64,000 nucleotides of DNA from NCBI GenBank assembly GCA_018268015.1, contig JAFDXJ010000008.1, positions 1 through 64,000 of the forward strand, given 5' to 3'. The stretch comes from Bacteroidota bacterium. Lineage in GTDB: Bacteria > Bacteroidota > Bacteroidia > Chitinophagales > Chitinophagaceae. The position numbers and the translations under genes were made by a program. This document shows positions 32,075 to 49,787 of this stretch, in pieces (within the stretch, counting starts at the first letter, position 1; each line of letters starts with the position of its first letter). Below the pieces are notes generated by a model. It ran no database searches, had not been told where the DNA came from, and saw nothing but the letters and a program-made list of their open reading frames with translations.

Positions 32075-35000
32075 ATGAAAAACCTACTCCTTGTAGGCTT
32101 TGCTGCTATGCTTAGCATTCCGGTAATTAGCCTTGCACAATCACTACCACAGGTTCCATCTAATTTTGGTATTTGGGAAACTTTCACAACATTTAATAAT
32201 AAGATGCAATCTCCGGAATTGCGTGGACGACTTTGCAATGTTGCTTGGAAGTCAATAGAGCCCGAACCGGGCGTATATACCTGGGATGCCCTGGATACAG
32301 TACTATATCGTACAGGAGCAGATTCTTTGCCTTTAATTTTCATGGTATATACGAAAGAAGATGCGCCAGACTGGTTATTTACCACAGGAAATGTACCCAG
32401 AGTTGTCGAAAGAAATGAAGTAGGAGATTCTGTTGGTTATGCACCATATTACCTGGATGAAAACTATAGGAATTATTTTAAAAACATGATTACAAGAGTC
32501 AGGTTGCATATGGATTCATTACCCTGGAATGTAAGGGAATGGATTATCGGAGTACAAGCCTGTTTTGGTTCCACCGGCGATGCTATTTCTTATAAAGGCT
32601 TTGTGGACCCGCAATACCAGTTAAGCAGCCAACAGTTTAATACTTTATTCAAGGAATTTTCCCTGGCATATTATAATGCCTATATAACCACTGATCCAAA
32701 AATTTCTGTATTAAGCAACCCGGATAATAAAGGGGAAGCACAATGTAACTGGCTGGAAGAAAATTGCCCTGGTGGCTGGATCAAAACAGGTTCTTTGGGG
32801 AAGTCATACCAACTAAATGATGAATTGGATAAATCCATGTGGCTTCATGATATGTTGAATACACCTCGGGAAGACGGTGATTTTCTGAGGGCACGATGCG
32901 AAATCGGTGGAGATGGATTACGTTCCGGGTATTGGAATATTTGTAAATATAAAAATGTATTTGCCGTTTTAGCCAGTTGTGTTTATTGGGGAGTTGACTG
33001 GAGCAATCAAAATTATGATATGATTGATGATTCATATAATGATCCGGCATATTTTTTCTTTAATCGGTATGCAGGACAGAAAACCCCAGATAAGAGTACC
33101 AATGCCATGAGCTATTTGAAGGACGCATTAGACGCTTCAGATACAGATCGATTCCCGGAAAGTATTTATGGAAAAGCAAAAAGGAAAAATCAACTAAGAT
33201 ACTTTGCCATTCTGGATAGCTTTATATCTTATGGAGCAAAGGAAGACGATATTTTAGCAGCGAGTCAGGGAGAAATGGGAAACAGAATTGCTACCGGATT
33301 AAATGATGTAGGCTGGCGTATCCTCCCGGGAAATTATGAAAGATATATGCGCCAACTTATGCCCAATGAAACCAGTGTTGGTTATTGGAATGTTCAATCC
33401 TCAGATAGTGCTACAACTATTTATGGGCGCTTCGCTAGAGGATTTGATCTTGCGCAAAATAAAGATGGCTTATATTTCATGATGGATTCTGCTTTTATGA
33501 GCAATGCACCATTGAATGCACAATATCCCATTACATTAGATATTGTATATCTTGATAAAGGAAATGGCGCCTGGAAATTATTTTACGATGCCATGGATTC
33601 TACAGATAAAGAAGCGTTGAGTATTCAATGTAATAATACCGGGAATTGGAAGACAGCTTCCGTAACGCTTTATGATGCGTATTTTGGTCAACGTGCCAGC
33701 CGTCAGTCTGATTTTTATATAAAAAATAATGGCAATGAAAATGTTATTTTTCAATTAGTTGAGATTGCAAGGCCGGATAGCCTTCAATCAAATATTGGTA
33801 TTCATACTTCTCCCTTGACTTCATTTGATACGGTTTGTATTAATAGCAATGCAATAAAACCTTTGGCCATAAACGGAGATTTTATGAATAATACGCCTGT
33901 TCAAATTGGCCCGGCGCCAGGCTATCTTTTTTCCTTTTCAGATTCTGCTTTCCAGGATTCACTTATCATCAGCGATTATGGCAATAGATTTTCAAAACAG
34001 GTAAATGTAAAATTGATCACAAGTGATACGGGTACATTTTATACATTTTTACCAATCACTTCATCCTTCCAGGATTCAATAATGTTACAGATTTCCGGTA
34101 CAGTTGTCAATAGTTTTGCAGATATTCAGGCCAATGTAATGAATGTTACCTGTTATAATGCTAAAAATGGAAATATTTCTCTGCTATTGGATGATTCTAT
34201 AAATACATATCAGTATTCATGGTCTGAACCAAACATTAAATTTTCTTCCAACAATAAAAATATTGACAGCCTGCTGCCCGGAAATTATCACCTGGATGTA
34301 TTTGCCGCAGGTGCTTGTAAATCTTCAGCCGACTTTGTCATCACTCAACCGGACCTGCTCCAGGTAAGCATCAATGCGGACACGATGATTTGTAAAAATG
34401 GCCTGGCAAATGTGACCGTCACTGCTACAGGAGGAACATTACCTTATATTGGAACCGGTGTGATCCCTTCCAGCCCGGGTAATAGAAATTTTACGGTTAT
34501 TGATTCCAATGGTTGTACGGTTAATAAGACGATTCCAATAACAAATGGAACGATGGTGGTACCCGCTAAACCTGTACAGATATTTAGCGCTGCTGCTGAT
34601 TCTACCGGGCTTTGTAATGGAGGAGATTATAATTTTTATATAGATACTGTAAGTAATGCTACCAACTATCAATGGTCTTTACCGGAAAATTGTTACATCA
34701 TATCCGCTTCAACAGACAGTAGTGCAATTATCATGCATGCTCCGGAAAGTTTTTCAGGCGGTACACTTAGTGTTGTATCAGCGAATATTTGCGGAGTAAG
34801 TACTGGCACACTCATGAAAACCCTGACTTCCTTACCTGCACCACCTTCCATGATCAATGGGCCAGTGAACGTAATGCCTTCTCAACAAGATATCAATTAT
34901 TCACTTACTGAAACCCAGGGATTAACCTACAATTGGGCTTTTCCTCCACAAGTTCTGATCAATTCTGGACAAGGGTCTTCTTTAGTTAATGTTAACTGGG

Positions 35001-36715
35001 GAGTCGTTTCAGGAAATATTTATGTAAATGCACAGAATAATTGCGGGCAATCTGCCAATACAGTGTTACAGGTTAGTACAATTGGAGGTTTATTTACTTT
35101 GTCAGATACGATACTTTCAAATTTTGATACCACATGTGTAGGTGGATTGAGTACGGCAAAATCATTCGGTATGAGCGCTTCTGGTATTTATGGAGCGCCT
35201 GTTACTATCGGCCCTGCTGCCGGGTTTAAATTTTCTCCATCTTTAAATGGTACTTATACGGATTCGCTGGTCTATTCAAACTATGGCAACAATTTAAATA
35301 AATCTGTTTTTGTAAAATTTTCTCCTATAACAGAAAATACAAATGAAGCATTTGTTCCGGTGAGCAGTAATGATTTTCAAACAGCCTATATTCATGTTAC
35401 CGGTAAAGGGATTTTAAGCAGCCCACAAATCTCTGCAGAAGTGATACCGGTTAATTGTTTTGGTGAAAAAAATGGTTCTATTGATGTGCAAACAAATGAC
35501 GGTAATGGTCCTTTTACCTTTTCCTGGAAAAGCTCATCGCCACCATTCTCATCTAATGAATCTTATATCAGCGGACTGAAAGCGGCAGACTATACGGTTA
35601 CGATCAATTCATATGGGGGATGCAGTGCTTCTTCCACATTTACCGTAACGCAGCCAGATATACTTAAGACAGTCATAAGTGCTGATGAAATGTATTGCAA
35701 AAATTCAACAACGAATGTTTATGTGGATGGCAGTGGAGGAAATTTACCCTATACCGGCACAGGCACTTTTACAAAAGGGCCGGGATCTTCTTTATATTCA
35801 ATTAGTGACGCTAAAGGTTGCACAGCCCAGCAATATTTTAATGTACAAAATGGCAGCGTGGTTGCACCTGTCAGGCCAAATGTGATCAATGCTGAGGATG
35901 CAATAAATAAAGGGCTATGTTTCCCTACTCAGGCTGTTTTATCCATTGAGTCAATACCTAATGCATCACATTATTCCTGGACCTTACCAAATGGATTAAC
36001 TATGATCCATGCAAATACTGATAGTTCCGAAATAACTATTTTACCCAAAAGCGGCTTTTCCACCGGAACTGTATCGGTACAATCTGTAAATGCCTGTGGT
36101 ATAAGTATGGGAACAATTAAAACACTGCAATCAGCGCCTTCAAAACCTCCTTATATCAATGGCCCGGTAAATATTGACCCTTCATTTGACGAATTGGAAT
36201 ATTCAACAGAATATGTGGAGGGTATCACTTATGCCTGGTCAGTGCCTGTAAAATCTACGATTATCAATGGGCAAAATACTAATCAAATTCATGTTGACTG
36301 GGGAACAAAGCCGGGTAATGTTTCCGTTAAAAAATTAAATGCCTGTGCACAATCTCCTACGACTTATTTATATGTGAATTTAAAACCCGGATTTCAAAAT
36401 GGATTTTCAAATACTTCAATACCCGCAAACGAACAAATGCTCAAGGAAAATGAAAGCCCGGTTAAAGTATCGCTTTATCCAAACCCAGCGAGGGATTTTA
36501 CCGTATTGCAATTCTATATGAAATCCTCAAAGTCTTATACTGTACAGCTTTTAGGAATGGATGGCCAGGTTTTGCAAAACCTGAAGGGTATCGGTGAGAC
36601 AGGAAATAATCAACTCAGGATAAATCTTGCAAACTATGCAAATGGATTGTATCAATTAATTTATTTCAATGAGAAAGGGATAAAAAGCGTTATGAAATTT
36701 ACGAAAGAAAAATAA
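32075..36715 (+). CDS. Giant T9SS-exported protein: glycosidase-like head, duplicated SprB/PKD-like module, type A sorting tail
   Basis: The 1546-residue protein starts with a signal peptide (about 1-22). Residues about 25-420 look like a TIM-barrel glycoside hydrolase (RLCNVAWKSIEPEPGVYTWDALD, WIIGVQACFGSTGDA), but the family and catalytic acids were not identified. A beta domain (about 430-572) follows. Residues about 575-1002 and 1003-1434 are two homologous copies of one composite module: an FDT-C strand domain with IGPAxGF and YGN, a SprB-like repeat ending ITQPDLL/VTQPDIL, then PKD-like Ig domains containing INGPVN. The C-terminus is a T9SS type A sorting domain (SLYPNPARDFTVLQF to GLYQLIYFNEKG). 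It is probably displayed on or released from the cell surface by the T9SS, plausibly for polysaccharide binding or degradation. The gene is single and divergent from the SirB1-like gene. Confidence 0.82.
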   Translation: MKNLLLVGFAAMLSIPVISLAQSLPQVPSNFGIWETFTTFNNKMQSPELRGRLCNVAWKSIEPEPGVYTWDALDTVLYRTGADSLPLIFMVYTKEDAPDWLFTTGNVPRVVERNEVGDSVGYAPYYLDENYRNYFKNMITRVRLHMDSLPWNVREWIIGVQACFGSTGDAISYKGFVDPQYQLSSQQFNTLFKEFSLAYYNAYITTDPKISVLSNPDNKGEAQCNWLEENCPGGWIKTGSLGKSYQLNDELDKSMWLHDMLNTPREDGDFLRARCEIGGDGLRSGYWNICKYKNVFAVLASCVYWGVDWSNQNYDMIDDSYNDPAYFFFNRYAGQKTPDKSTNAMSYLKDALDASDTDRFPESIYGKAKRKNQLRYFAILDSFISYGAKEDDILAASQGEMGNRIATGLNDVGWRILPGNYERYMRQLMPNETSVGYWNVQSSDSATTIYGRFARGFDLAQNKDGLYFMMDSAFMSNAPLNAQYPITLDIVYLDKGNGAWKLFYDAMDSTDKEALSIQCNNTGNWKTASVTLYDAYFGQRASRQSDFYIKNNGNENVIFQLVEIARPDSLQSNIGIHTSPLTSFDTVCINSNAIKPLAINGDFMNNTPVQIGPAPGYLFSFSDSAFQDSLIISDYGNRFSKQVNVKLITSDTGTFYTFLPITSSFQDSIMLQISGTVVNSFADIQANVMNVTCYNAKNGNISLLLDDSINTYQYSWSEPNIKFSSNNKNIDSLLPGNYHLDVFAAGACKSSADFVITQPDLLQVSINADTMICKNGLANVTVTATGGTLPYIGTGVIPSSPGNRNFTVIDSNGCTVNKTIPITNGTMVVPAKPVQIFSAAADSTGLCNGGDYNFYIDTVSNATNYQWSLPENCYIISASTDSSAIIMHAPESFSGGTLSVVSANICGVSTGTLMKTLTSLPAPPSMINGPVNVMPSQQDINYSLTETQGLTYNWAFPPQVLINSGQGSSLVNVNWGVVSGNIYVNAQNNCGQSANTVLQVSTIGGLFTLSDTILSNFDTTCVGGLSTAKSFGMSASGIYGAPVTIGPAAGFKFSPSLNGTYTDSLVYSNYGNNLNKSVFVKFSPITENTNEAFVPVSSNDFQTAYIHVTGKGILSSPQISAEVIPVNCFGEKNGSIDVQTNDGNGPFTFSWKSSSPPFSSNESYISGLKAADYTVTINSYGGCSASSTFTVTQPDILKTVISADEMYCKNSTTNVYVDGSGGNLPYTGTGTFTKGPGSSLYSISDAKGCTAQQYFNVQNGSVVAPVRPNVINAEDAINKGLCFPTQAVLSIESIPNASHYSWTLPNGLTMIHANTDSSEITILPKSGFSTGTVSVQSVNACGISMGTIKTLQSAPSKPPYINGPVNIDPSFDELEYSTEYVEGITYAWSVPVKSTIINGQNTNQIHVDWGTKPGNVSVKKLNACAQSPTTYLYVNLKPGFQNGFSNTSIPANEQMLKENESPVKVSLYPNPARDFTVLQFYMKSSKSYTVQLLGMDGQVLQNLKGIGETGNNQLRINLANYANGLYQLIYFNEKGIKSVMKFTKEK
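33797..36376 (+). repeat. Tandem duplication of a 1.3 kb coding module inside the cargo gene
   Basis: Copy 1 runs from about 33797 to 35080 and copy 2 from about 35081 to 36376. The two copies align along their whole length at protein level, for example TQPDLLQVSINADTMICKN against TQPDILKTVISADEMYCKN. Nucleotide identity has decayed, so the duplication is old or the copies have diverged under selection. Confidence 0.8.
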
Positions 36716-38425: not shown

Positions 38426-41400
38426 GTGAGGAAAATTTACTTTCTTATTATTTTACTTTCTCTGCTCGCTCAAAAAATGGACGCTCAAAGTTTCCGTAAT
38501 GAGTGGATTGATTATACAAAGACTTATTACAAATTCAGCCTGGGTCCTTTTGGTTATGATCAAGTGGGTTGGCCTAATTCAACTGGCCTCGTGCGAATCT
38601 CACAGGCAACTTTAGCTGCAAATGGGTTGGGGAATATCCCTGCAGAACAATTTCAATTATGGAAGGATGGAAAAGAGCAGCCCATTTATATAAGTAAAAC
38701 CACGGGAATATTAACGCCCGGTGACTATATTGAATTCTGGGGTGAAATTGCTAATGGTAAGCCGGATAAAGAACTTTACCCGGATAGCAGCTACCAGTTA
38801 GATGATACTTGGAGTCTTGAAACAGATACAGCTTCTTACTTTCTTACAAACAATATTTCAGGAAATAATCTACGGCTTCTCCAGGCAAATAATGCGGTAA
38901 ATACGGCAACGATACAGGCGGATAAAAATTTTATGTTTACCGTTGCACGTCATTATCGTTCCTATTTAAACCCGGGTATTGGTGTTTATGAAGAGCAACT
39001 TTTATTTTCATCTACATATGATATCGGCGAAGGATGGGCAAGCAGACCAGTGAATCCATCAACATGTGGTTGTAGCACACAGGATATTCCCTGGTATGCT
39101 TTAAAATTATATATGGATACCAATGGCCATCCAATGACAGCAAAGATCAATATTCTGGGAAATTCTCCGCACTACCGCAATGTAAAAGTGTTATTAAATA
39201 ACGATTCACTGACCCAATTCCCACTGGATTATTTTGATTATACTAAAAAAGTTATTTCCAATATTCCGGCCGGAAATATTAAAAATGATTCCGCTTTATT
39301 TGTGATAAAAAACCTGGGTAGCGAAAGCGAAAATGAATTGAAAGTCGCCAGTATTGCTTTGGATTATCCACGCACTTTTAATTTTGCCGGGAAAAGCTCT
39401 TTTGAATTCTCCCTTAGCCCTTCTGATTCAGGTCACTTATTGAAAATTTATAATTTTAACGCCAATGGAACCATCCCGGTATTATATGACCTAACATATT
39501 TAAAACGATATATTGCGAATACAGATATTGCAGATACACTGCAATTTTATATTCCTCCATCTATGGACAGTGCACGGTATGCACTGGTTCGCTCCGATGG
39601 TAGTACTGCTCAAAATATAACCGTACTTCGTCAAAGACAATTCACCGATTTTTCTAAAGTGGAGAATCAGGGGAATTTTTTAATCATCACCAATCGCTTA
39701 TTGTTGGGAAGTGGTAATGATGATTATATAAATCAATATCGCGATTACAGAGCATCTGATTCGGGCGGCCATTTCAATGCAGATATTATAGATATTGAAG
39801 ATATCACAGATCAATTTGCGTATGGTATTCAATGGCATCCTTTTTCTATTAAAAACTTTTTGCGTTATGGCAGGGAAAATTTTGTTGATCCCCCACAGTA
39901 TGCATTTATCATAGGTAAAGGCGTAAGCTATATAGAGAATCGGCCCAATAGTAATCAACCCATTTCTTCCCAGATAAATTTAGTTCCTACGTATGGCGAC
40001 CCGGGTTCAGATAATTTATTAGCTTCTAATGATTACAGTGCAATAAGCGTTACACCTATCGGGAGATTATCTGCAATTTCTGTAAATGAAATCGGCGATT
40101 ATTTGCAAAAAGTAAAAGAGTATGAAGCCGCCCAGAGAGATACACTTCAAAATGTAAATCAGAAAAGCTGGATGAAAACTGTTTTACAATTAACCGGAGC
40201 CTCGGATCCGAATTTGGGAAATATTTTGGATTCATTTACAAAAGCCTATGCCGCAATCATCAGTGATACGCTATTTGGAGGGAATGTAACCAACTACAGT
40301 AAAACCGGCGACCCGGTTGGTTATCCACAAGCTATTGCCAATTTCACCAATACTTTTAATGAAGGAAGTGCTTTAGTGGAATATTTTGGCCATTCATCTT
40401 CTTCTAACCTGGATTTTAACTTGGATGATGCATCTAAATACAACAATACCGGACGGTACCCGGTCTTTCTGGTAAATGGATGCAAGGCAGGAAATATTTT
40501 TGACTATGATCCAAACAGGTTTACACTACGTTCTACCACATCGGAGAGATTTGTTTTAGAGCCGGAAAAAGGCGCCATTGCTTACGAATCAAACAGCAGT
40601 TTTGGTATCGTTAGTTATTTAAATATCCTTACACAGGAATTTTATAAAGCCATTGCATATAGTAAATATGGAAAAGGCCTGGGAGAAATTTCGATTGAAG
40701 CAGTAAAACAATTTTTGAATTATACGGGTCTTGATGATTTCTACGGCCGTTTTCATGCAGAACAATTTGTTTTACATGGAGACCCTTCCCTTCACTTCAA
40801 CTCATTTCCGTTACCGGATTATGCTGTGGATAGCACATCTATACAGGTATTGAATAATCCGCTGACCGTAGCGAATGATTCTGTTTTATTGAAAATAAAT
40901 TACTACAATTTGGGCCGTGCTGTAAATGATTCTGTACATATATCTCTCTCAAGGAAATTCCCCAATGGAGATAGTATGGAAGTTTATCAGGCGACCATTC
41001 CACCGGTACATGCTTTAGATTCCATGTATATAAAGATCCCGGTTGTAAGTAACCGGGACAAAGGTGAAAATCGGGTAACTTTTTTTATTGATGATTTAAA
41101 AGAAAAGACTGAATTAAGTGAAAAAAATAATAGCTGTATAACTACTTTTTTTATTACGGATGCAGCGTTATTACCCATCACGCCATATAATTATTCCATC
41201 GTATCACAAGATGTTATTGATCTGAATGCATCTACTGCAAATGCCCTTGATACGGTGAAGCAATATATCATGGAACTGGATACAACAGCTTTATTTAATT
41301 CTCCCATAAAATTAACAAGGCATGTCATTGGCCCTGCGGGAGTCATTTCATTTAATGCTGTTCCATTGTCCTTGAATAATACGGTTTATTACTGGCGGGT

Positions 41401-43327
41401 TGCAGTGGATAGTGCCAATGCACCCTGGAATCATTTTTCATTTATCCATAAAAATCCCGGAAATCCCGGCTTTGAGCAGGCACATTATTTTCAACATACG
41501 GAATCATCTTTCCAAAATATCATCCTGGATTCTTCCCGAACATTTTCATTTGGTAAAGAATTAACCAATGTATATGTCTTGCAATCCATTTATCCTACCA
41601 GTGGTACGGAAGATTACCAGTTTAGCGTACATGTCAATGGGAATCAAATTGCAGCCAGCGCCTGTGTAGGCAGCTCCATCATTTTTTCCATTTTTGATCC
41701 ACTGACTTTTAAAGCGGTTCCGAATCTTACACAACCCTTTAATGCAGGACCTGTATGTGACTCAAGCCGCTTATACAATTTTGAATATAGTACACAATCT
41801 GCTGCAACCCGGAAAAATGCAATGGACTTTTTAGATTTTTATGTAAATAATGGATACTATGTAGTAGCCCGAAAAATATACGATCTTGGAAATGCTGATT
41901 GGGCACCAACCGTATGGGCGAGTGATACGACGATCTATGGTTCTCATAATTCCTTGTACCATCGTCTGAAAGACCAGGGTACCATGATAGATTCCTTTAT
42001 ATACCCACGCACCTTTGTGATGATTTTCAAAAAGAATGATTCTACGAATTATAAACCGGTATCTGTTTTTTCGAAAGGATTATATGACCGTATAACGGTT
42101 TCTGAGAATATACCTACTACGGATACCCTTGGCACAATTACATCACCATTATTTGGGCCGGGTAAAGCCTGGAGTAAAGCCATTTGGAATGGAAATAGTA
42201 TCAATAATAATAATATTACAAAGATGGATATTATTGCTATTGACAAGAATGGTAAGGATACCGTTTTTTATACAATTGATAAAACACAAAATGAACAGGA
42301 TATTTCTGCGATGGATGCTGCAATATATCCCTACGTACAATTACGAATGCATAGCCAGGATTCAATAACTACACTGCCATTTCAATTGCATGATTGGCGT
42401 GTGGAATATGCTCCGGTACCGGAAGGAGCATTACAGCCTTCTTTAGGAATAGATATTCCGGATTCAATCAATTTCATGCATGCCACCAATGTTGCTTTTG
42501 ATACATTGCAGGGTTATGTAGTCTTTAAAAATATCAGCCAGACTGCATTTACACCCCTCAAAATAAAATGGGTATTATACGATGAAAATAATAATGCGTA
42601 TTCTTTTGAAGTACCGCGTACCAGGGCATTACCGGCTGGTGATACCGTCTATGTGAATTTCCTGGCAAATCTTACTGCACTGAATGAAGGCCTGTATAAT
42701 TTATATATTGAAGTAAACCCGGATAATGATCAACCTGAGCAATATCACTTTAATAACTTCTTGTATAAATATATTAAAATAAAAAGAGAAATGGTCTTGC
42801 CGGTTCAGTTACTGGATTTTACAGCTACCAAACAAAAAACCAGTGTATTATTAAATTGGAAAATAACTCATGAAATAAATATTGCCTATTACCAGGTAGA
42901 AAGAAGTGTGGATGGCCTTACTTTTTCAACACTCGGGAAAATCATCCCTGTACCCGGCAACTCTTTGGTAAAGAATTATCAATTTACTGATTTGAATCCA
43001 TACCAGGGAAAAAACTATTATCGCTTAAAGATGATAGATGCCAATGGTGCATTTTCATATTCACCTATACGGGAAATTGATTTTGAATTACAATCAGTTG
43101 TTTTACTTTATCCCAATCCTGTTCATTCCGAATTAAAGATCCAGGTTTTTAAAAACAATACAATATTGAACCATGTCATACTTTATTCCTTATATGGTCA
43201 GAAGTTATTGGTAAAAGAATTTTCAGGTATGATTACCCTCTCTTTAAAAAATTTGCCTGCCGGTACATATATTGCTTTGATCAATGATGGCACAAATGAA
43301 AAGGCGTATAAAATACAAAAGGAATAA
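38426..43327 (+). CDS. porU2: PorU2-type C25 peptidase (putative T9SS sortase), copy A, with own type A sorting tail
   Basis: The 1633-residue protein resembles PorU2, a gingipain-family (C25) relative of the T9SS sortase PorU. A GTG start at 38426 opens the signal peptide (IYFLIILLSLLAQKMDAQ). The N-terminal domain has FRNEWIDYTKTYYKF and EQFQLWKDGKEQPIY. The C25 domain spans roughly residues 410-790, with predicted catalytic His656 (VEYFGHSSSSN) and Cys686 (FLVNGCKAGNIF). CARDB-like modules end in TELSEKNN and NPDNDQPEQYHFNNFLYK. The C-terminus adds a fibronectin-like domain (VLPVQLLDFTATKQ) and a type A T9SS tail (LLYPNPVHSELKIQVFK). It would be exported across the outer membrane by the T9SS. 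About 185 bases separate it from porV2. True sortase activity is inferred only from family membership. Confidence 0.8.
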   Translation: MRKIYFLIILLSLLAQKMDAQSFRNEWIDYTKTYYKFSLGPFGYDQVGWPNSTGLVRISQATLAANGLGNIPAEQFQLWKDGKEQPIYISKTTGILTPGDYIEFWGEIANGKPDKELYPDSSYQLDDTWSLETDTASYFLTNNISGNNLRLLQANNAVNTATIQADKNFMFTVARHYRSYLNPGIGVYEEQLLFSSTYDIGEGWASRPVNPSTCGCSTQDIPWYALKLYMDTNGHPMTAKINILGNSPHYRNVKVLLNNDSLTQFPLDYFDYTKKVISNIPAGNIKNDSALFVIKNLGSESENELKVASIALDYPRTFNFAGKSSFEFSLSPSDSGHLLKIYNFNANGTIPVLYDLTYLKRYIANTDIADTLQFYIPPSMDSARYALVRSDGSTAQNITVLRQRQFTDFSKVENQGNFLIITNRLLLGSGNDDYINQYRDYRASDSGGHFNADIIDIEDITDQFAYGIQWHPFSIKNFLRYGRENFVDPPQYAFIIGKGVSYIENRPNSNQPISSQINLVPTYGDPGSDNLLASNDYSAISVTPIGRLSAISVNEIGDYLQKVKEYEAAQRDTLQNVNQKSWMKTVLQLTGASDPNLGNILDSFTKAYAAIISDTLFGGNVTNYSKTGDPVGYPQAIANFTNTFNEGSALVEYFGHSSSSNLDFNLDDASKYNNTGRYPVFLVNGCKAGNIFDYDPNRFTLRSTTSERFVLEPEKGAIAYESNSSFGIVSYLNILTQEFYKAIAYSKYGKGLGEISIEAVKQFLNYTGLDDFYGRFHAEQFVLHGDPSLHFNSFPLPDYAVDSTSIQVLNNPLTVANDSVLLKINYYNLGRAVNDSVHISLSRKFPNGDSMEVYQATIPPVHALDSMYIKIPVVSNRDKGENRVTFFIDDLKEKTELSEKNNSCITTFFITDAALLPITPYNYSIVSQDVIDLNASTANALDTVKQYIMELDTTALFNSPIKLTRHVIGPAGVISFNAVPLSLNNTVYYWRVAVDSANAPWNHFSFIHKNPGNPGFEQAHYFQHTESSFQNIILDSSRTFSFGKELTNVYVLQSIYPTSGTEDYQFSVHVNGNQIAASACVGSSIIFSIFDPLTFKAVPNLTQPFNAGPVCDSSRLYNFEYSTQSAATRKNAMDFLDFYVNNGYYVVARKIYDLGNADWAPTVWASDTTIYGSHNSLYHRLKDQGTMIDSFIYPRTFVMIFKKNDSTNYKPVSVFSKGLYDRITVSENIPTTDTLGTITSPLFGPGKAWSKAIWNGNSINNNNITKMDIIAIDKNGKDTVFYTIDKTQNEQDISAMDAAIYPYVQLRMHSQDSITTLPFQLHDWRVEYAPVPEGALQPSLGIDIPDSINFMHATNVAFDTLQGYVVFKNISQTAFTPLKIKWVLYDENNNAYSFEVPRTRALPAGDTVYVNFLANLTALNEGLYNLYIEVNPDNDQPEQYHFNNFLYKYIKIKREMVLPVQLLDFTATKQKTSVLLNWKITHEINIAYYQVERSVDGLTFSTLGKIIPVPGNSLVKNYQFTDLNPYQGKNYYRLKMIDANGAFSYSPIREIDFELQSVVLLYPNPVHSELKIQVFKNNTILNHVILYSLYGQKLLVKEFSGMITLSLKNLPAGTYIALINDGTNEKAYKIQKE

Positions 43328-43512
43328 AAGATTTATTTTATAGAATTTTTATTAAAAGCGCTGGAAAATTCAACAAAGAAAGACTCCGGTGAGGGAAAGC
43401 CCGAATACTCCATTTAAAAATTCCGGTTTTATATAAAATATTTTAATCTTTGTTGCGTATATCTTAAAGGCGCCAAAGAATAATAGCCTTACATTCGCCC
43501 TAATAAACACTT

Positions 43513-44700
43513 ATGAAGTACATGTGCCGTCTGATCTGCCTGCTAATAATAACTCTATATGCAGGAATTACCCAGGCACAATTCCGCAAATATTCCAATG
43601 AATTTCTCAATATTGGCGCAGGAGCGCGTGGGCTTGCAATGGGTGGGGCGCAAGTAGCCAGTATAGAAGATGGTGACGCCGGTTATTGGAATCCGGCAGG
43701 GCTTGTATATGTATTTGATCATCCCTCAATTGGCCTGATGCATGCGGATTATTTTGCCGGTATTGGCAAATATGATTATCTCTCCGGGGCTATGCCTATT
43801 GGGGATAAATATAAATCTTTAGGCATTTCCATTATGCGTTTTGGTGTGGATGATATTCCGAATACGCTTTTTCTGGTGGAGCCGGATGGATCTCTGAATT
43901 ATAATAATATACAATCCTTTTCTTCGGCGGACTATGCTTTAATTTTATCTTATTCCCATTTATTTAAAGATGAGGAGAAAAGACAATTGAGCTGGGGGGC
44001 CAATACAAAAATTATTTATCGGAGTGTGGGTAGTTTTGCTACAGCCTGGGGCTTTGGTTTTGATTTGGGATTTATGTATAAAACCCCCACCTGGCGTTTA
44101 GGAATTTCTGCAAGAGATGTTACCACCACTTTTAATGCATGGTCTTTTTCATTTGATGAAAAAGAAAAAGAAGTTTTGTATCTCACCAACAATGATATTC
44201 CCATAAAGTCAACGGAGCTTACCGCACCAAGGCTGGTGATAGGAGGGGCCTATAATTTTAAACTGAGTGACAATTTTCACCTGTTGGCAGAGACAGATTT
44301 AAATGTCACATTTGATGGACAAAGAAATACCCTCATCAGCGCTAATCCGGTAAGCATAGACCCGCATTTTGGCATTGAAGCAAATATTAATGATATCGTT
44401 TTTATTCGGGCCGGTGCTCAAAATTTTCAACAAGCACTTGCAGATGGGGATACATTGAACCAAAAAAAAGTTTGGATTTTTCAGCCCAGTATTGGTGCAG
44501 GATTTAGAATTGGCAATGTAAACATTGATTATGCCTTCACCAATTTAGCAAATCAGTCTAACCCTTTGTATTCACATATCTTCTCACTGAGACTGGATAT
44601 ATTGCCTAAAAAAACGGAAAGTGAAAAAAACGGGTATTTCCCTAAATTGCCACCCTCTGAAAAACCCAAAAAACAAAAAGGCTATTTTCCAAAATCCTGA
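43513..44700 (+). CDS. porV2: PorV2-type outer-membrane barrel of the type IX secretion/sorting system
   Basis: The 395-residue FadL-like barrel belongs to the PorV/PorQ family. A signal peptide (about 1-22) precedes the family signature FLNIGAGARGLAMGGAQVASIEDGDAGYWNPAGLV. Alternating beta-strands fill the rest, ending IDYAFTNLANQSNPLYSHIFSLRLDIL. PorV proteins shuttle T9SS cargo from the translocon to the PorU sortase. Its position between two PorU2-type genes, eight bases before the second one, suggests it serves them. The last 30 residues are an unusual basic extension with the pentapeptide GYFPK twice. Confidence 0.85.
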   Translation: MKYMCRLICLLIITLYAGITQAQFRKYSNEFLNIGAGARGLAMGGAQVASIEDGDAGYWNPAGLVYVFDHPSIGLMHADYFAGIGKYDYLSGAMPIGDKYKSLGISIMRFGVDDIPNTLFLVEPDGSLNYNNIQSFSSADYALILSYSHLFKDEEKRQLSWGANTKIIYRSVGSFATAWGFGFDLGFMYKTPTWRLGISARDVTTTFNAWSFSFDEKEKEVLYLTNNDIPIKSTELTAPRLVIGGAYNFKLSDNFHLLAETDLNVTFDGQRNTLISANPVSIDPHFGIEANINDIVFIRAGAQNFQQALADGDTLNQKKVWIFQPSIGAGFRIGNVNIDYAFTNLANQSNPLYSHIFSLRLDILPKKTESEKNGYFPKLPPSEKPKKQKGYFPKS

Positions 44701-44708
44701 TAGATGTC

Positions 44709-47700
44709 ATGAAGAAACTTTTATCCATATTCATTTTATCATTATTTGCTCTATCGGCCATGGCACAAGCATACAATAATGAATGGATAGATTATTCAAA
44801 GACTTACTACAAGTTTAAAATTCCTCGAAGTGCAGTTTACAGAATCAGTCAATCTACTTTGACAGCCGCAGGTTTGCAAAATGTACCGGTGGAGCAATTT
44901 CAATTATGGAGAAATGGGAAAGAAGAAATTATATATACATCCGTTTCAACTGGGCCTTTGCCTGCGGGAGGATATATAGAATTTTGGGGGAAGCAAAATG
45001 ATGGGAAGCCGGATAATGCTTTGTATAAAGATCCGGCCAATCAATTGAATGATGCTTATAGCTTTGAAACTGATACTGCAAGCTATTTTTTGACGGTAAA
45101 CCCATCGGGAAATAATAAACGTTTTATAAACTCCGTGAATGATGTGGCAGGAAATACTTTACCACCGGATCCCTATTTCATGTATCATTTTAGAATTGAT
45201 TTTAAAGACCAGATCAATAGAGGAAAAGCAGTGAATTATGGAGAATATGTTTACTCCTCAACTTATGATGTGGGTGAATTATGGACTACAGGCGATATAC
45301 ATCCGGGCGGCCCGGCCAATCAACAAACAGGTAGTTTACTTGTAGCTACTTCAGGGCCTATGGCTACTTTATCCGTTTGCTTTACCGGCAATTCTTTTTT
45401 AGGAAATAGCCGGAAAGTGAAAGCTGATATCAATGGAGTTAATTATATTAATGCGCCTCTTGCGCCATTTGAAGCAAAAGTTTTTACCAATACTGCGGTG
45501 CCTCTTTCCGGGATCAATGCGTCTTCAGTACAATTCACTTTATCCAATGTCAATTCCGATGTGAATGACCGGGTGGCCGCTTCATTTTTAGATTTATTAT
45601 ATCCACATGTTTTTGATTTTAATGGACAACCAAATTTTTTGTTTACACTCGCGCCCAGCGCACAAGGAAATTATTTAGAGATTAAGAATTTCTCCTGGTC
45701 CGGTCCAGCACCTGTTTTGTATGATTTTACATCACAAAAAAGATATGTTGCCAATACTTCGGTGAATGGTTTATTGCGTTTTGCATTGCCTGCATCGGGC
45801 GTATCAAGAGATTTTGTTTTGGTAAACCAGGATGCCACAAATGTGTTTAATGTAAATACTTTGACGCAGCGTAATTTTATGAATTTCTCGGCATCTTCCA
45901 ACCAGGGAAATTACCTGATCATTTCCAATAAAATTTTATTTCCCAATAATGCCGTAGAGAATTACAGGCAATACCGCTCCTCTGCAGCTGGCGGTTCTTA
46001 TAATGCAAAAATTTATGATATAGATGAGTTGACTGATCAATTTGCATTTGGTATTAAAAAGCATCCTATTTCCATTCACAATTTTTTGCGATATGCCAGG
46101 AAAAATTTTGCTGCACCTCCGAAAATGGTTTTTCTTATCGGTAAAGCAGTTACTTATGATGAGGCAAGAAAGAATGAAAGTTCTCCTTACATAGATCAGT
46201 TGAATCTGGTACCAACTTTCGGCTGGCCCGCTTCAGACAATATCCTGGCATCTGATAATCTTGATCCACTCCCTGCAACACATATCGGCCGGCTTTCTGC
46301 CATAAGTACAACGGAAGTAAATAATTACCTGGATAAAGTAAAATTGTATGAACAACAGCAAGCAAGCACATTGCAGACGATAGAAAATAAAGCATGGATG
46401 AAAACTATGGTGCATGTCGTTGGCGCCAATGATCCCAACCTGGATGCATCTCTGACGGCACATTTAAATTCATACAGGGATATTGTGATTGATACTTTTT
46501 ATGGCGCAAATGTTACCAGTTTTAATAAAACATCTACGGGACCTGTTACACCTATTACCAACGCTTTGATGGAGCAGTTATTTAATAATGGCATCAGTTT
46601 ATTAAACTACTTTGGTCATTCCGCCGCAACTGCTTTGGATTATAATTTAAATTCTCCGGATCAATATAATAATTACGGAAAGTACCCCATGTTTCTGGTA
46701 AATGGATGTAGTGCAGGAAATATCTTTTCTTTTGATACATCCCGCATGAACCTTATCACATCCTTATCAGAATTATATGTACTCGCGAAAGACAGAGGCT
46801 CCATTGGGTTTATAGCTAGTACACATTTTGGTGTGGAAAGCTTTTTGGATAATTATTGCAAAGGATTTTATCAATCCCTGTCTATTGATGATTACAATGA
46901 ACCAATCTCTTTCAATATTTATGATGCCTTAAATTACTTATTGAGTAATAGAGGCATTGACTCTACCACTCGGTATCTGCATGCAGAAGAAAATGTATTA
47001 CATGGAGATCCCGCCATCAAAATCAACGCCCATACCAAACCTGACTTTGTTATTGAAGAACCACAGGTAATCATTAATCCCACTTTTATTTCTGTTGCCA
47101 GTGGAAGTTTTGATATCAAAACCTATATCTATAATATTGGGAAAGCATTAGGCGATTCGGTTTCTTTTTCCATTAAAAGACAATACCCCAATGGTAATAT
47201 CGTATCTCTTTTTTCACAAAATATCAAATCAGTTCGTTATATAGATTCTGTAAAATTGACGGTGCCAATCGTAGCATCAACGGATGTCGGTGAAAATAAA
47301 CTTATAGTTACCATAGATGATAATTTTAAGTATGATGAATTGAGTGAATTAAATAATACCATCACAAAATCATTTTTTATTTATGAAGATGAATTAAAGC
47401 CGGTTTATCCTTATGATTTTGCTATTGTAAATAAGCAAGGGATTAAACTGGTGGCTTCCACAGCTAATCCTATTGCACCACTGCAACAGTATGCTATGGA
47501 AATAGATACTACGGAGCTTTTTAATTCGCCTTTGAAATACAATCAAACGATCAATTCTGTTGGAGGCGCATTGGAGTTCAATGCCGGAATACCTTTTACA
47601 GATAGTACAGTTTATTATTGGCGTGTAGCTCCGGTACCCACTGATGGTGTCTATCACTGGAATACCAGCAGTTTTGTTTATCTTCCGGGAAGCAGTTTTG

Positions 47701-49787
47701 GTTACAACCAGTCGCATTTATATCAACATTTAAAATCTTCTACGGACCGGATTTATATAGATAGCTTTTCCAGGAAATGGTATTATGATAGCATCTTATC
47801 TTCCATGCAAATTATCAATTCCATTTTTGGGTTTAGTGGCGCACAGGATGCAGATTTTCAGGTACAGATAAATGGATATACAATCAGTTCATATCGTTGC
47901 ATGGGGCATTCCGTTGTGTTTAATGTATTTGATCCGGTGACACTTAAACCATTTTATAATCAGGCCATTCCTTCTACCACTCCAAGTGGAAGTTATGGAG
48001 GGTTTATGGGAAGTGGCGGTGTTTGCGGAAAGATTGGTTCCCAATATAATTTTGAGTTTACTTATATGGATACGGTTGGCAGAAGAAAGATGCGCGACTT
48101 TATGGACTGGATACCGAATGGATCTATTGTAACGACAAGATTATTCTTAGATCAACCTTTTGATCAAACACCCTATGTTGATGTTTGGAAAAATGATGCG
48201 AATATTTATGGAGCCGGCAACACCTTGTATAACCGAATGATCAATGTGGGTTTTAGCGGATTAGATTCCTTTACTTATGCACGAACATGGGCTTTTGTAT
48301 ATCAAAAAAATACGCCGGCTTTCACAACTTCATGGGATTTGAGTGAGGGTCTATATGATAAAATCATCCTGGATAAAATCATCATCTCACCGGATAGTCT
48401 GGGTTTCATTACATCCCCTTCTTTTGGCCCGGCTAAAGCCTGGAAATCAGTAGTGTGGCGCGGTGCCAGTCTGGACAATCAACCCGGTGATCATGTAAAT
48501 GTTGATGTAATCGGTGTAAACACTGCCGGAGCAGAATCTGTTTTATATACATTGAATTCGGGGCAACAAAACTTTGATATTTCCGCAGTGAGCCCGGTTC
48601 AATATCCTTTTATCAAACTACGCATGCGCGATGCGGATAGTATCAATCTGACTCCTTACCAGTTGCGCTACTGGCGTATTTTATATGACCCTGTTCCTGA
48701 AGGAGCGCTGGCACCCAATATTTTATATTCTTTCAAAGACACATTGGGTCTGGGAGAAAAAACCAATTTCAGTATTGCTTTTAAAAATGTTAGTGAGACC
48801 GCTTTTGCAGATAGTATTGCCGTTAATATGACCATCTATGATGCTAATAATGTGGGCACGAATGTTTTTATTCCAAAATTAAAAGCATTGAATCCCGGGG
48901 ATACTGCATCCGTAACGACGTCTATTGATTCAAAGAATTTTAATGGGTTAAATAATTTATACCTGGATATAAACCCGGATAATGATCAACCGGAGCAATA
49001 TCATTTCAACAACTTTTTATATAAGAATTTCCTTGTTGCTACAGATAATTATAAACCAACTCTGGATGTAACTTTTGATGGCGTACACATATTAAATAAT
49101 GACATTGTTTCTGCCAATCCCCATGTTCTTATCAAAATGAAAGATGAATCGAAATATTTATTATTAGATGATACCAGTCTTTTTTCCGTACAATTAGTGT
49201 ACCCGGATGGCAGTCAGCGAAGATTTTATTTTAATAATGATACACTCATTTTTACTCCGGCTACGGGCAGTGCAGATAATATTGCAACAGTAGATTTTAC
49301 ACCCTTTTTATTGACAGATGGCACCTATAGGTTACTGGTACATGGTCAGGATAAAACAGGGAATCCTGCAGGCTTTGTTGATTATACCGTTTCTTTTAAT
49401 GTGTATAATACTCCGATGATCAGCAATTTGTTTAACTATCCAAATCCATTTACCACATCTACAGCATTTGCGTTTACGGTTACCGGAAGTGTATTGCCAC
49501 AAAATATCCGAATACAAATCTTGACAATTACCGGGAAAATTGTTCGGGAAATAACTTCTGCCGAATTAGGCCCATTGCATATAGGACGCAATATCACTGA
49601 ATTTAAATGGGACGGTACGGATCAGTACGGGCAAAAACTCGCTAATGGGGTATATCTCTACCGGGTACTGACTAACCTGAATGGAAAATCATTGGATAAG
49701 TTCCCTACCTATGATTCCAATGGCAACCAGGTAGATACGGATAAATATTTTAATAAGGGATATGGAAAAATGTACTTAATGCGCTGA
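44709..49787 (+). CDS. porU2: PorU2-type C25 peptidase (putative T9SS sortase), copy B, FlgD-like C-terminus
   Basis: The 1692-residue paralogue of copy A has the same overall order: a signal peptide (LLSIFILSLFALSAMAQ), an N-terminal domain (YNNEWIDYSKTYYKF, EQFQLWRNGKEEIIY), a C25 domain with His637 (LLNYFGHSAATA) and Cys667 (FLVNGCSAGNIF), and CARDB-like segments ending DELSELNN and NPDNDQPEQYHFNNFLYK. It lacks copy A's fibronectin and type A tail. Instead it has an extra beta-domain (about 1450-1560) and a FlgD/Ig-like terminal region with NYPNPFTTSTAF, IRIQILTITGKIVR and FKWDGTDQYGQKLANGVYLYRV, which is itself a known form of T9SS terminus. It starts eight bases after porV2, so the two are co-transcribed. 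The usual PorU2-PorV2 pair is most likely this gene with porV2. Confidence 0.85.
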   Translation: MKKLLSIFILSLFALSAMAQAYNNEWIDYSKTYYKFKIPRSAVYRISQSTLTAAGLQNVPVEQFQLWRNGKEEIIYTSVSTGPLPAGGYIEFWGKQNDGKPDNALYKDPANQLNDAYSFETDTASYFLTVNPSGNNKRFINSVNDVAGNTLPPDPYFMYHFRIDFKDQINRGKAVNYGEYVYSSTYDVGELWTTGDIHPGGPANQQTGSLLVATSGPMATLSVCFTGNSFLGNSRKVKADINGVNYINAPLAPFEAKVFTNTAVPLSGINASSVQFTLSNVNSDVNDRVAASFLDLLYPHVFDFNGQPNFLFTLAPSAQGNYLEIKNFSWSGPAPVLYDFTSQKRYVANTSVNGLLRFALPASGVSRDFVLVNQDATNVFNVNTLTQRNFMNFSASSNQGNYLIISNKILFPNNAVENYRQYRSSAAGGSYNAKIYDIDELTDQFAFGIKKHPISIHNFLRYARKNFAAPPKMVFLIGKAVTYDEARKNESSPYIDQLNLVPTFGWPASDNILASDNLDPLPATHIGRLSAISTTEVNNYLDKVKLYEQQQASTLQTIENKAWMKTMVHVVGANDPNLDASLTAHLNSYRDIVIDTFYGANVTSFNKTSTGPVTPITNALMEQLFNNGISLLNYFGHSAATALDYNLNSPDQYNNYGKYPMFLVNGCSAGNIFSFDTSRMNLITSLSELYVLAKDRGSIGFIASTHFGVESFLDNYCKGFYQSLSIDDYNEPISFNIYDALNYLLSNRGIDSTTRYLHAEENVLHGDPAIKINAHTKPDFVIEEPQVIINPTFISVASGSFDIKTYIYNIGKALGDSVSFSIKRQYPNGNIVSLFSQNIKSVRYIDSVKLTVPIVASTDVGENKLIVTIDDNFKYDELSELNNTITKSFFIYEDELKPVYPYDFAIVNKQGIKLVASTANPIAPLQQYAMEIDTTELFNSPLKYNQTINSVGGALEFNAGIPFTDSTVYYWRVAPVPTDGVYHWNTSSFVYLPGSSFGYNQSHLYQHLKSSTDRIYIDSFSRKWYYDSILSSMQIINSIFGFSGAQDADFQVQINGYTISSYRCMGHSVVFNVFDPVTLKPFYNQAIPSTTPSGSYGGFMGSGGVCGKIGSQYNFEFTYMDTVGRRKMRDFMDWIPNGSIVTTRLFLDQPFDQTPYVDVWKNDANIYGAGNTLYNRMINVGFSGLDSFTYARTWAFVYQKNTPAFTTSWDLSEGLYDKIILDKIIISPDSLGFITSPSFGPAKAWKSVVWRGASLDNQPGDHVNVDVIGVNTAGAESVLYTLNSGQQNFDISAVSPVQYPFIKLRMRDADSINLTPYQLRYWRILYDPVPEGALAPNILYSFKDTLGLGEKTNFSIAFKNVSETAFADSIAVNMTIYDANNVGTNVFIPKLKALNPGDTASVTTSIDSKNFNGLNNLYLDINPDNDQPEQYHFNNFLYKNFLVATDNYKPTLDVTFDGVHILNNDIVSANPHVLIKMKDESKYLLLDDTSLFSVQLVYPDGSQRRFYFNNDTLIFTPATGSADNIATVDFTPFLLTDGTYRLLVHGQDKTGNPAGFVDYTVSFNVYNTPMISNLFNYPNPFTTSTAFAFTVTGSVLPQNIRIQILTITGKIVREITSAELGPLHIGRNITEFKWDGTDQYGQKLANGVYLYRVLTNLNGKSLDKFPTYDSNGNQVDTDKYFNKGYGKMYLMR

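Follow-up and report, generated by a model that had tools for sequence, protein, structure and literature searches.

Organization of the cluster

The stretch of DNA analysed here (the window, 64,000 nt) carries a cluster of three genes in the same orientation, in which two large C25 protease-like proteins flank an outer-membrane barrel:

38426..43327, + strand: PorU2 copy A (A), C25 protease-like, with a cargo-type tail; 1633 aa, GTG start
43513..44700, + strand: PorV2 outer-membrane barrel (V); 395 aa, 535.8 bits against NF052325
44709..49787, + strand: PorU2 copy B (B), PorV2-linked C25 protease-like protein; 1692 aa

The gap between A and V is 185 nt, and that between V and B 8 nt; a scan of the A–V gap for sigma-70 and terminator signals revealed none exceeding chance. 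Against the NCBIfam PorU2 family (NF052324, curated cut-off 450) A scores 739.6 and B 837.9 bits, while canonical PorU (NF033707) matches B at 154.5 bits, under its cut-off of 420, and lists no entry for A among its matches. The barrel exceeds the curated PorV2 cut-off of 325 bits and reaches only 40.7 bits against the PorV equivalog NF033710, below the threshold of 250. In the phylogenetic tree PorU and PorU2 are split with 100 % support, and both A and B lie within PorU2. The initial annotation had named the proteases PorU2, with a tree proposed as the check on A, and had assigned the flanked barrel to the PorV family; the scores and the tree bear out these identities, the barrel being PorV2. 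Its claim that the two proteases share one order of domains stands for about 1460 residues, beyond which the tails diverge into a type A tail in A and a PorU-type tail in B.

The genes conserved around V–B include tyrS and glycosyltransferase/acyltransferase-like genes, and no gene specific to the type IX secretion system (T9SS) was recognised among these conserved neighbours. Within the window, positions 32075–36715 encode a protein of 1546 aa that combines PKD-like and SprB repeats with a type A sorting tail and is a probable T9SS cargo located near the cluster.

Catalytic domains and the PorU2-specific insertion

PorU is the standard enzyme that trims and anchors T9SS cargo; the sortase removes the C-terminal domain (CTD) and links the newly formed C terminus to a glycan. 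The C25 catalytic domains of A and B, and the regions that set PorU2 apart, are located as follows:

39677..40792, + strand: C25 catalytic domain of A (His656, Cys686; residues checked)
45912..47021, + strand: C25 catalytic domain of B (His637, Cys667; structure match to RgpB and PorU)
47388..49046, + strand: insertion of about 550 residues in B relative to PorU (alignment to PorU 6za2)
47793..48392, + strand: FAM3/ILEI (POMGnT1-stem)-like domain of the B insertion (structure comparison)
41534..42157, + strand: region of A aligned to the FAM3/ILEI-like domain of B

Both proteins match the C25 family PF01364 with E<1e-49 (5e-51 for A). The catalytic pairs are intact and exactly where the initial annotation had placed them, and the GH and GC of the His/Cys pair are invariant in all aligned PorU and PorU2 copies. 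The N-terminal 881 residues of B were modelled with a pLDDT of 92.9; PorU (6za2) is the best Foldseek match, covering the whole length, and RgpB the best domain match, with a Z score of 38.3 over 324 residues for the catalytic domain against RgpB (1cvr). Among A copies dN/dS ranges from 0.08 to 0.17, with some pairs near saturation of synonymous sites; judged by these ratios, A is under purifying selection. Together with the invariant catalytic pair, they rule out that A is a degenerate copy. A evolves faster than B in most domains; in residues ~1121–1250 of the insertion, by contrast, conservation is stronger across the A copies than across the B copies.

The insertion is borne out by the lengths of the canonical PorU of the family (~1150–1250 aa) and of PorU2 (~1690 aa), and the C-terminal part of PorU 6za2 aligns only from residue ~1446 of B onward. 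Three PorU2 relatives of 1080–1345 aa that fall outside the family (L069:6965-10207, L064:7718-11092 and L065:6993-11030) are of a length that suggests they are devoid of it. In the model of the C-terminal 812 residues of B (pLDDT 89.3), residues 1029–1228 resemble the POMGnT1 stem 5ggi (VIA-align, Z 16.1, rmsd 2.2, 142 residues). The Pfam ILEI family (PF15711) matches B with an E value of 0.028 and a relative with 6e-8, over the cut-off; a Pfam search of A gave no match in the aligned region.

The POMGnT1 stem and FAM3C have been shown to bind GlcNAc-type sugars (PMC9802357). The sugar-binding Arg/Asp/Arg of POMGnT1 aligns with PorU2 only weakly by profile, with the conserved Arg off by one, and a sequence search could not align PorU2 to this site; that the modelled FAM3-like domain may bind sugar is thus a guess. 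In P. gingivalis, PorZ brings glycan to PorU (PMC8545088), which makes a built-in lectin-like domain of PorU2 of interest. PorU2 could in principle be a one-chain attachment machinery, combining a C25 sortase with its own glycan-binding domain and dispensing with delivery of the PorQ/PorZ type, in which case PorU and PorQ would have become dispensable in Chitinophagaceae and A would serve the type A cargo carried by PorV; this extended scheme is considered improbable.

The tails of A and B

The two copies differ in how they end:

42797..43105, + strand: Fn3-like linker of A ('LPVQLLDFTA...'), missing from B (A-clade tail alignment)
43106..43321, + strand: type A T9SS sorting domain of A, about 72 aa (TIGR04183)
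48921..49784, + strand: PorU-type C-terminal region of B, with a CTD of ~116 aa starting at 49437

The linker, including its boundary, was called by inspection and has no family match. The tail of A scores 37.1 bits against TIGR04183 (cut-off 23), which classes it as type A cargo, and the same model matches all 11 A-type tails examined. The tail of B is FlgD-Ig-like, aligns to positions 835–1078 of the PorU model NF033707 and matches residues 1009–1141 of the PorU structure 6za2 (E 2.6e-8); all 28 B tails match PorU and PorZ C termini. Although the B tail lies close to the TIGR04183 cut-off (21.8 bits alone, 24.1 in a search with its neighbours), it is better fitted by the PorU model, at 69.3 bits.

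Counted from the PNP motif, A-type tails span 70–79 aa and B-type tails 103–118 aa, the canonical PorU tail of the same family being 92–94 residues long. In P. gingivalis, cleaved CTDs comprise 67–88 residues and the non-cleaved CTDs of PorZ and PorU 96 and 108 residues, respectively (PMC11285876); PorU is held non-covalently on PorV and has an uncleavable CTD (PMC11285876; PMC5562754). By its length class, which is a clue and not proof, the A tail would be cleavable. One A-type copy, at L086:9995-16315 in a locus of A–V–B order, is 2106 aa long and exceeds the others by ~470 residues.

Absence of PorU and PorQ from the genome

This genome (2.885 Mb, 99.92 % complete) encodes no C25 proteins other than A and B, and a search of it with NF033707 found no canonical PorU. 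The genes gldJ, porV and ispF follow one another on a contig of 136 kb, where 343 nt take the place that porU has in relatives, and this locus rules out a canonical PorU that is hidden or lost in an assembly gap. The order gldJ-porU-porV-ispF occurs in eight of nine PorU-bearing relatives (ispF was unseen in one of the eight), whereas 13 of the 20 other PorU-less genomes have the arrangement gldJ-porV-ispF and none of the 20 carries porU at the gldJ-porV locus. PorQ was likewise undetected in the genome, whose PorV-family matches are PorV and PorV2 only. Across 64 genomes, a match of PorQ strength was present in 22/22 PorU-bearing and 0/42 PorU-less genomes, and five such matches were verified as PorQ.

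The initial annotation, which took the cluster for a second attachment complex, had proposed a search for canonical porU and porV and a count of cargo by tail type. The search returned porV but not porU and, PorQ being undetected as well, there is no complete canonical complex beside which the cluster could be a second one. Type A tails number 36, a count that may be off because many of the matches lie at contig starts (C1, C6, C10, C21, C33, C35, C40 and C57) with similar scores and offsets. At these starts, repeated sequence probably breaks the assembly.

Linkage to PorV2 and origin of copy A

In the named loci, the PorU2 directly 3' of PorV2 bears a PorU-type tail in all 62 cases with a complete PorU2, and type A tails are confined to copies that are not directly downstream of PorV2. 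The order A–V–B is found in the window, G305, L085, L086, L088, L103 and L125, while A lies ~27 kb from V–B in Limnovirga soli, elsewhere on the V–B contig in Segetibacter aerophilus, and at a distance or on a separate contig in Foetidibacter luteolus, G342, G347 and G414. By gene order, porV2 and porU2B are a conserved pair.

Disrupted copies were also encountered. The PorU2 of G254, 3' of an intact PorV2 (L070:4704-9767), consists of four open frames, and the genome also encodes canonical PorU. At L173:6850-18610 (G495) the second PorU2, PorV2 and the third PorU2 each appear as split overlapping frames, which are either pseudogenes or sequencing frameshifts.

In the larger tree a single clade (25 rows, 99 %) unites the A-type copies, and its sister comprises V-linked copies (26 rows, 99 %); this topology is explained by one old duplication with later losses and, as far as the tree tells, A stems from a single old duplication in Chitinophagaceae. 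The split is older than several genera, which rules out that A is a recent local duplicate of B. The extra copies of G362, unplaced in the first tree, were resolved by additional taxa: copies of the G362 type group with A, and those of the G229 type represent a separate duplication. In genus g5, a second and independent PorU2 duplicate lies immediately 5' of porV2; its tail is of a third type. Such independent duplicates 5' of porV2 (L020:3958-8751, L170:7816-12600 and L171:12224-17035) end in a tail of the form '...NW.CG.LP...', in which no sorting domain was recognised.

Distribution in Chitinophagaceae

Of 295 genomes sampled across the class Bacteroidia, 208 encode a protein over the PorU2 family cut-off. 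The 393 Chitinophagaceae genomes comprise 142 with both PorU and PorU2, 129 with PorU2 only, 103 with PorU only and 19 with neither. Extra PorU2 copies are found in 34/129 PorU-less versus 4/142 PorU-bearing PorU2 genomes (odds ratio 12; Fisher p 1e-8, calculated on genomes that are not independent and without correction for phylogeny), although split genes may underlie a few of the two-copy calls. Counted by genus, the figures are 14/31 and 4/42. PorU was found in none of the genomes with a placed A-clade copy that were searched for it.

Members of genus g175 (G313, G398, G533, G569 and G602; one locus, L030), which have single-contig genomes, retain PorV2-PorU2, with PorU, PorV and PorQ undetected and no more than one weak match to a type A tail, possibly the tail of PorU2 itself. 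Since PorV is missing there, PorV2 is the sole possible PorV-family partner of B in this genus, and the persistence of the pair where PorU, PorV and type A tails are lacking indicates that the processing of type A cargo is not the only role of PorV2-PorU2. Conversely, five genomes (G300, G306, G339, G344 and G376) have PorV and 13–36 type A tails, with neither PorU nor PorU2 detected, and the tails alone therefore do not demand a C25 sortase.

Possible roles of the two copies

Built on family membership, catalytic residues, tails, linkage, the loss of porU and porQ and a single duplication, all read from sequence, the favoured interpretation (probability about 0.6) is that a PorU-less T9SS has kept the PorV2-PorU2B pair, that A is an old duplicate that carries a cargo tail, and that the two enzymes are partitioned by their tails. 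By analogy with PorU on PorV, B would be exported and held uncleaved on PorV2 via its PorU-type tail. A would be a type A client of the still encoded canonical PorV and, once exported, would end as a surface or released C25 enzyme. The location of each enzyme would thus be set by the tail, not by the catalytic domain. Either copy may cut CTDs, join proteins to glycan, or only degrade proteins.

How far A has departed from sorting can be read in two ways. It might be a gingipain-like protease of PorU2 descent, secreted or on the surface, that plays no part in sorting, which would fit its Fn3-like linker and cargo-type tail, the resemblance of the C25 domain to RgpB and its faster evolution in most domains. 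Against it, A keeps the whole PorU2-specific insertion, with residues ~1121–1250 better conserved than in B, and A-clade copies did not turn up in any genome together with PorU; this reading is considered possible without being probable. Somewhat unlikely is a special case of tail-based partitioning, in which A replaces the lost PorU, docking on PorV by its type A tail to trim and anchor the type A cargo that PorV carries, and B-PorV2 has a different job. A and B are, after all, the sole C25 proteins of a genome that has 36 type A tails and an intact PorV, and the enrichment of extra copies in PorU-less genomes (p 1e-8, kinship ignored) points in the same direction. So does genus g165, in which PorU2 is single in both genomes with PorU and present twice in all seven that lack PorU. 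Genera that have an extra copy also show a greater density of type A tails than do PorU-less genera that have none (p 0.02, by genus). On the other hand, no extra copy was detected in 95 of the 129 PorU-less PorU2 genomes, many of which have type A tails, the five genomes with neither enzyme imply that a C25 sortase is not strictly needed, and the tail of A belongs to the cleavable length class whereas that of PorU does not.

The initial annotation had instead regarded A and B as alternative sortases that share PorV2. The A–V–B order in the window and in at least six other genomes, and the independent duplicate of genus g5 that likewise lies upstream of V, speak for this model, and the adjacency of A to V in several genera leaves some room for a link between A and PorV2. 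However, B is the partner of porV2 in every V–B locus encountered, whereas A often resides elsewhere in the genome (in Limnovirga, Foetidibacter, Segetibacter aerophilus, G342, G347 and G414 it is separated by 27 kb or more, or placed on a different contig) and has a cargo-type tail in place of the one found on every V-linked copy. A PorV2 shared by both is therefore very improbable, and tail-based partitioning remains the preferred reading.

Comparison with known systems

The PorU-PorV-PorQ-PorZ complex of P. gingivalis likewise combines a C25 enzyme with a PorV-family barrel, and B resembles its PorU in the N-terminal and C25 architecture and in the long tail. PorU2 nevertheless forms a separate, fully supported clade, with B below the PorU cut-off, and contains the ~550-residue insertion with its FAM3-like domain; PorQ, a part of the P. 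gingivalis complex, was undetected in all 42 PorU-less genomes examined. The fold of B residues 1029–1228 is that of the POMGnT1 stem and FAM3 (ILEI), and Pfam ILEI is matched in relatives, although sequence similarity is very weak and the sugar-binding residues have no confident counterpart.

PorU2 is widespread in the class yet little studied, and a search of one collection of open literature for PorU2 by name found nothing. That a third of the Chitinophagaceae genomes have PorU2 without PorU bears on the trimming and anchoring of type IX cargo there. A, B and V are all far over the cut-offs of NF052324 and NF052325, the NCBIfam families that are named 'putative'; what is new relative to these entries, at the level of sequence, is a tail-swapped PorU2 paralogue in a PorU-less T9SS, a setting not described there. 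The gingipains RgpB and Kgp share the catalytic fold (Z 38 and 34) and, with A, a type A CTD of the cleavable class, but have neither the PorU2 N-terminal domains nor the insertion that A retains. The tail swap may be considered a natural experiment on what turns T9SS proteins into fixed components or released clients.
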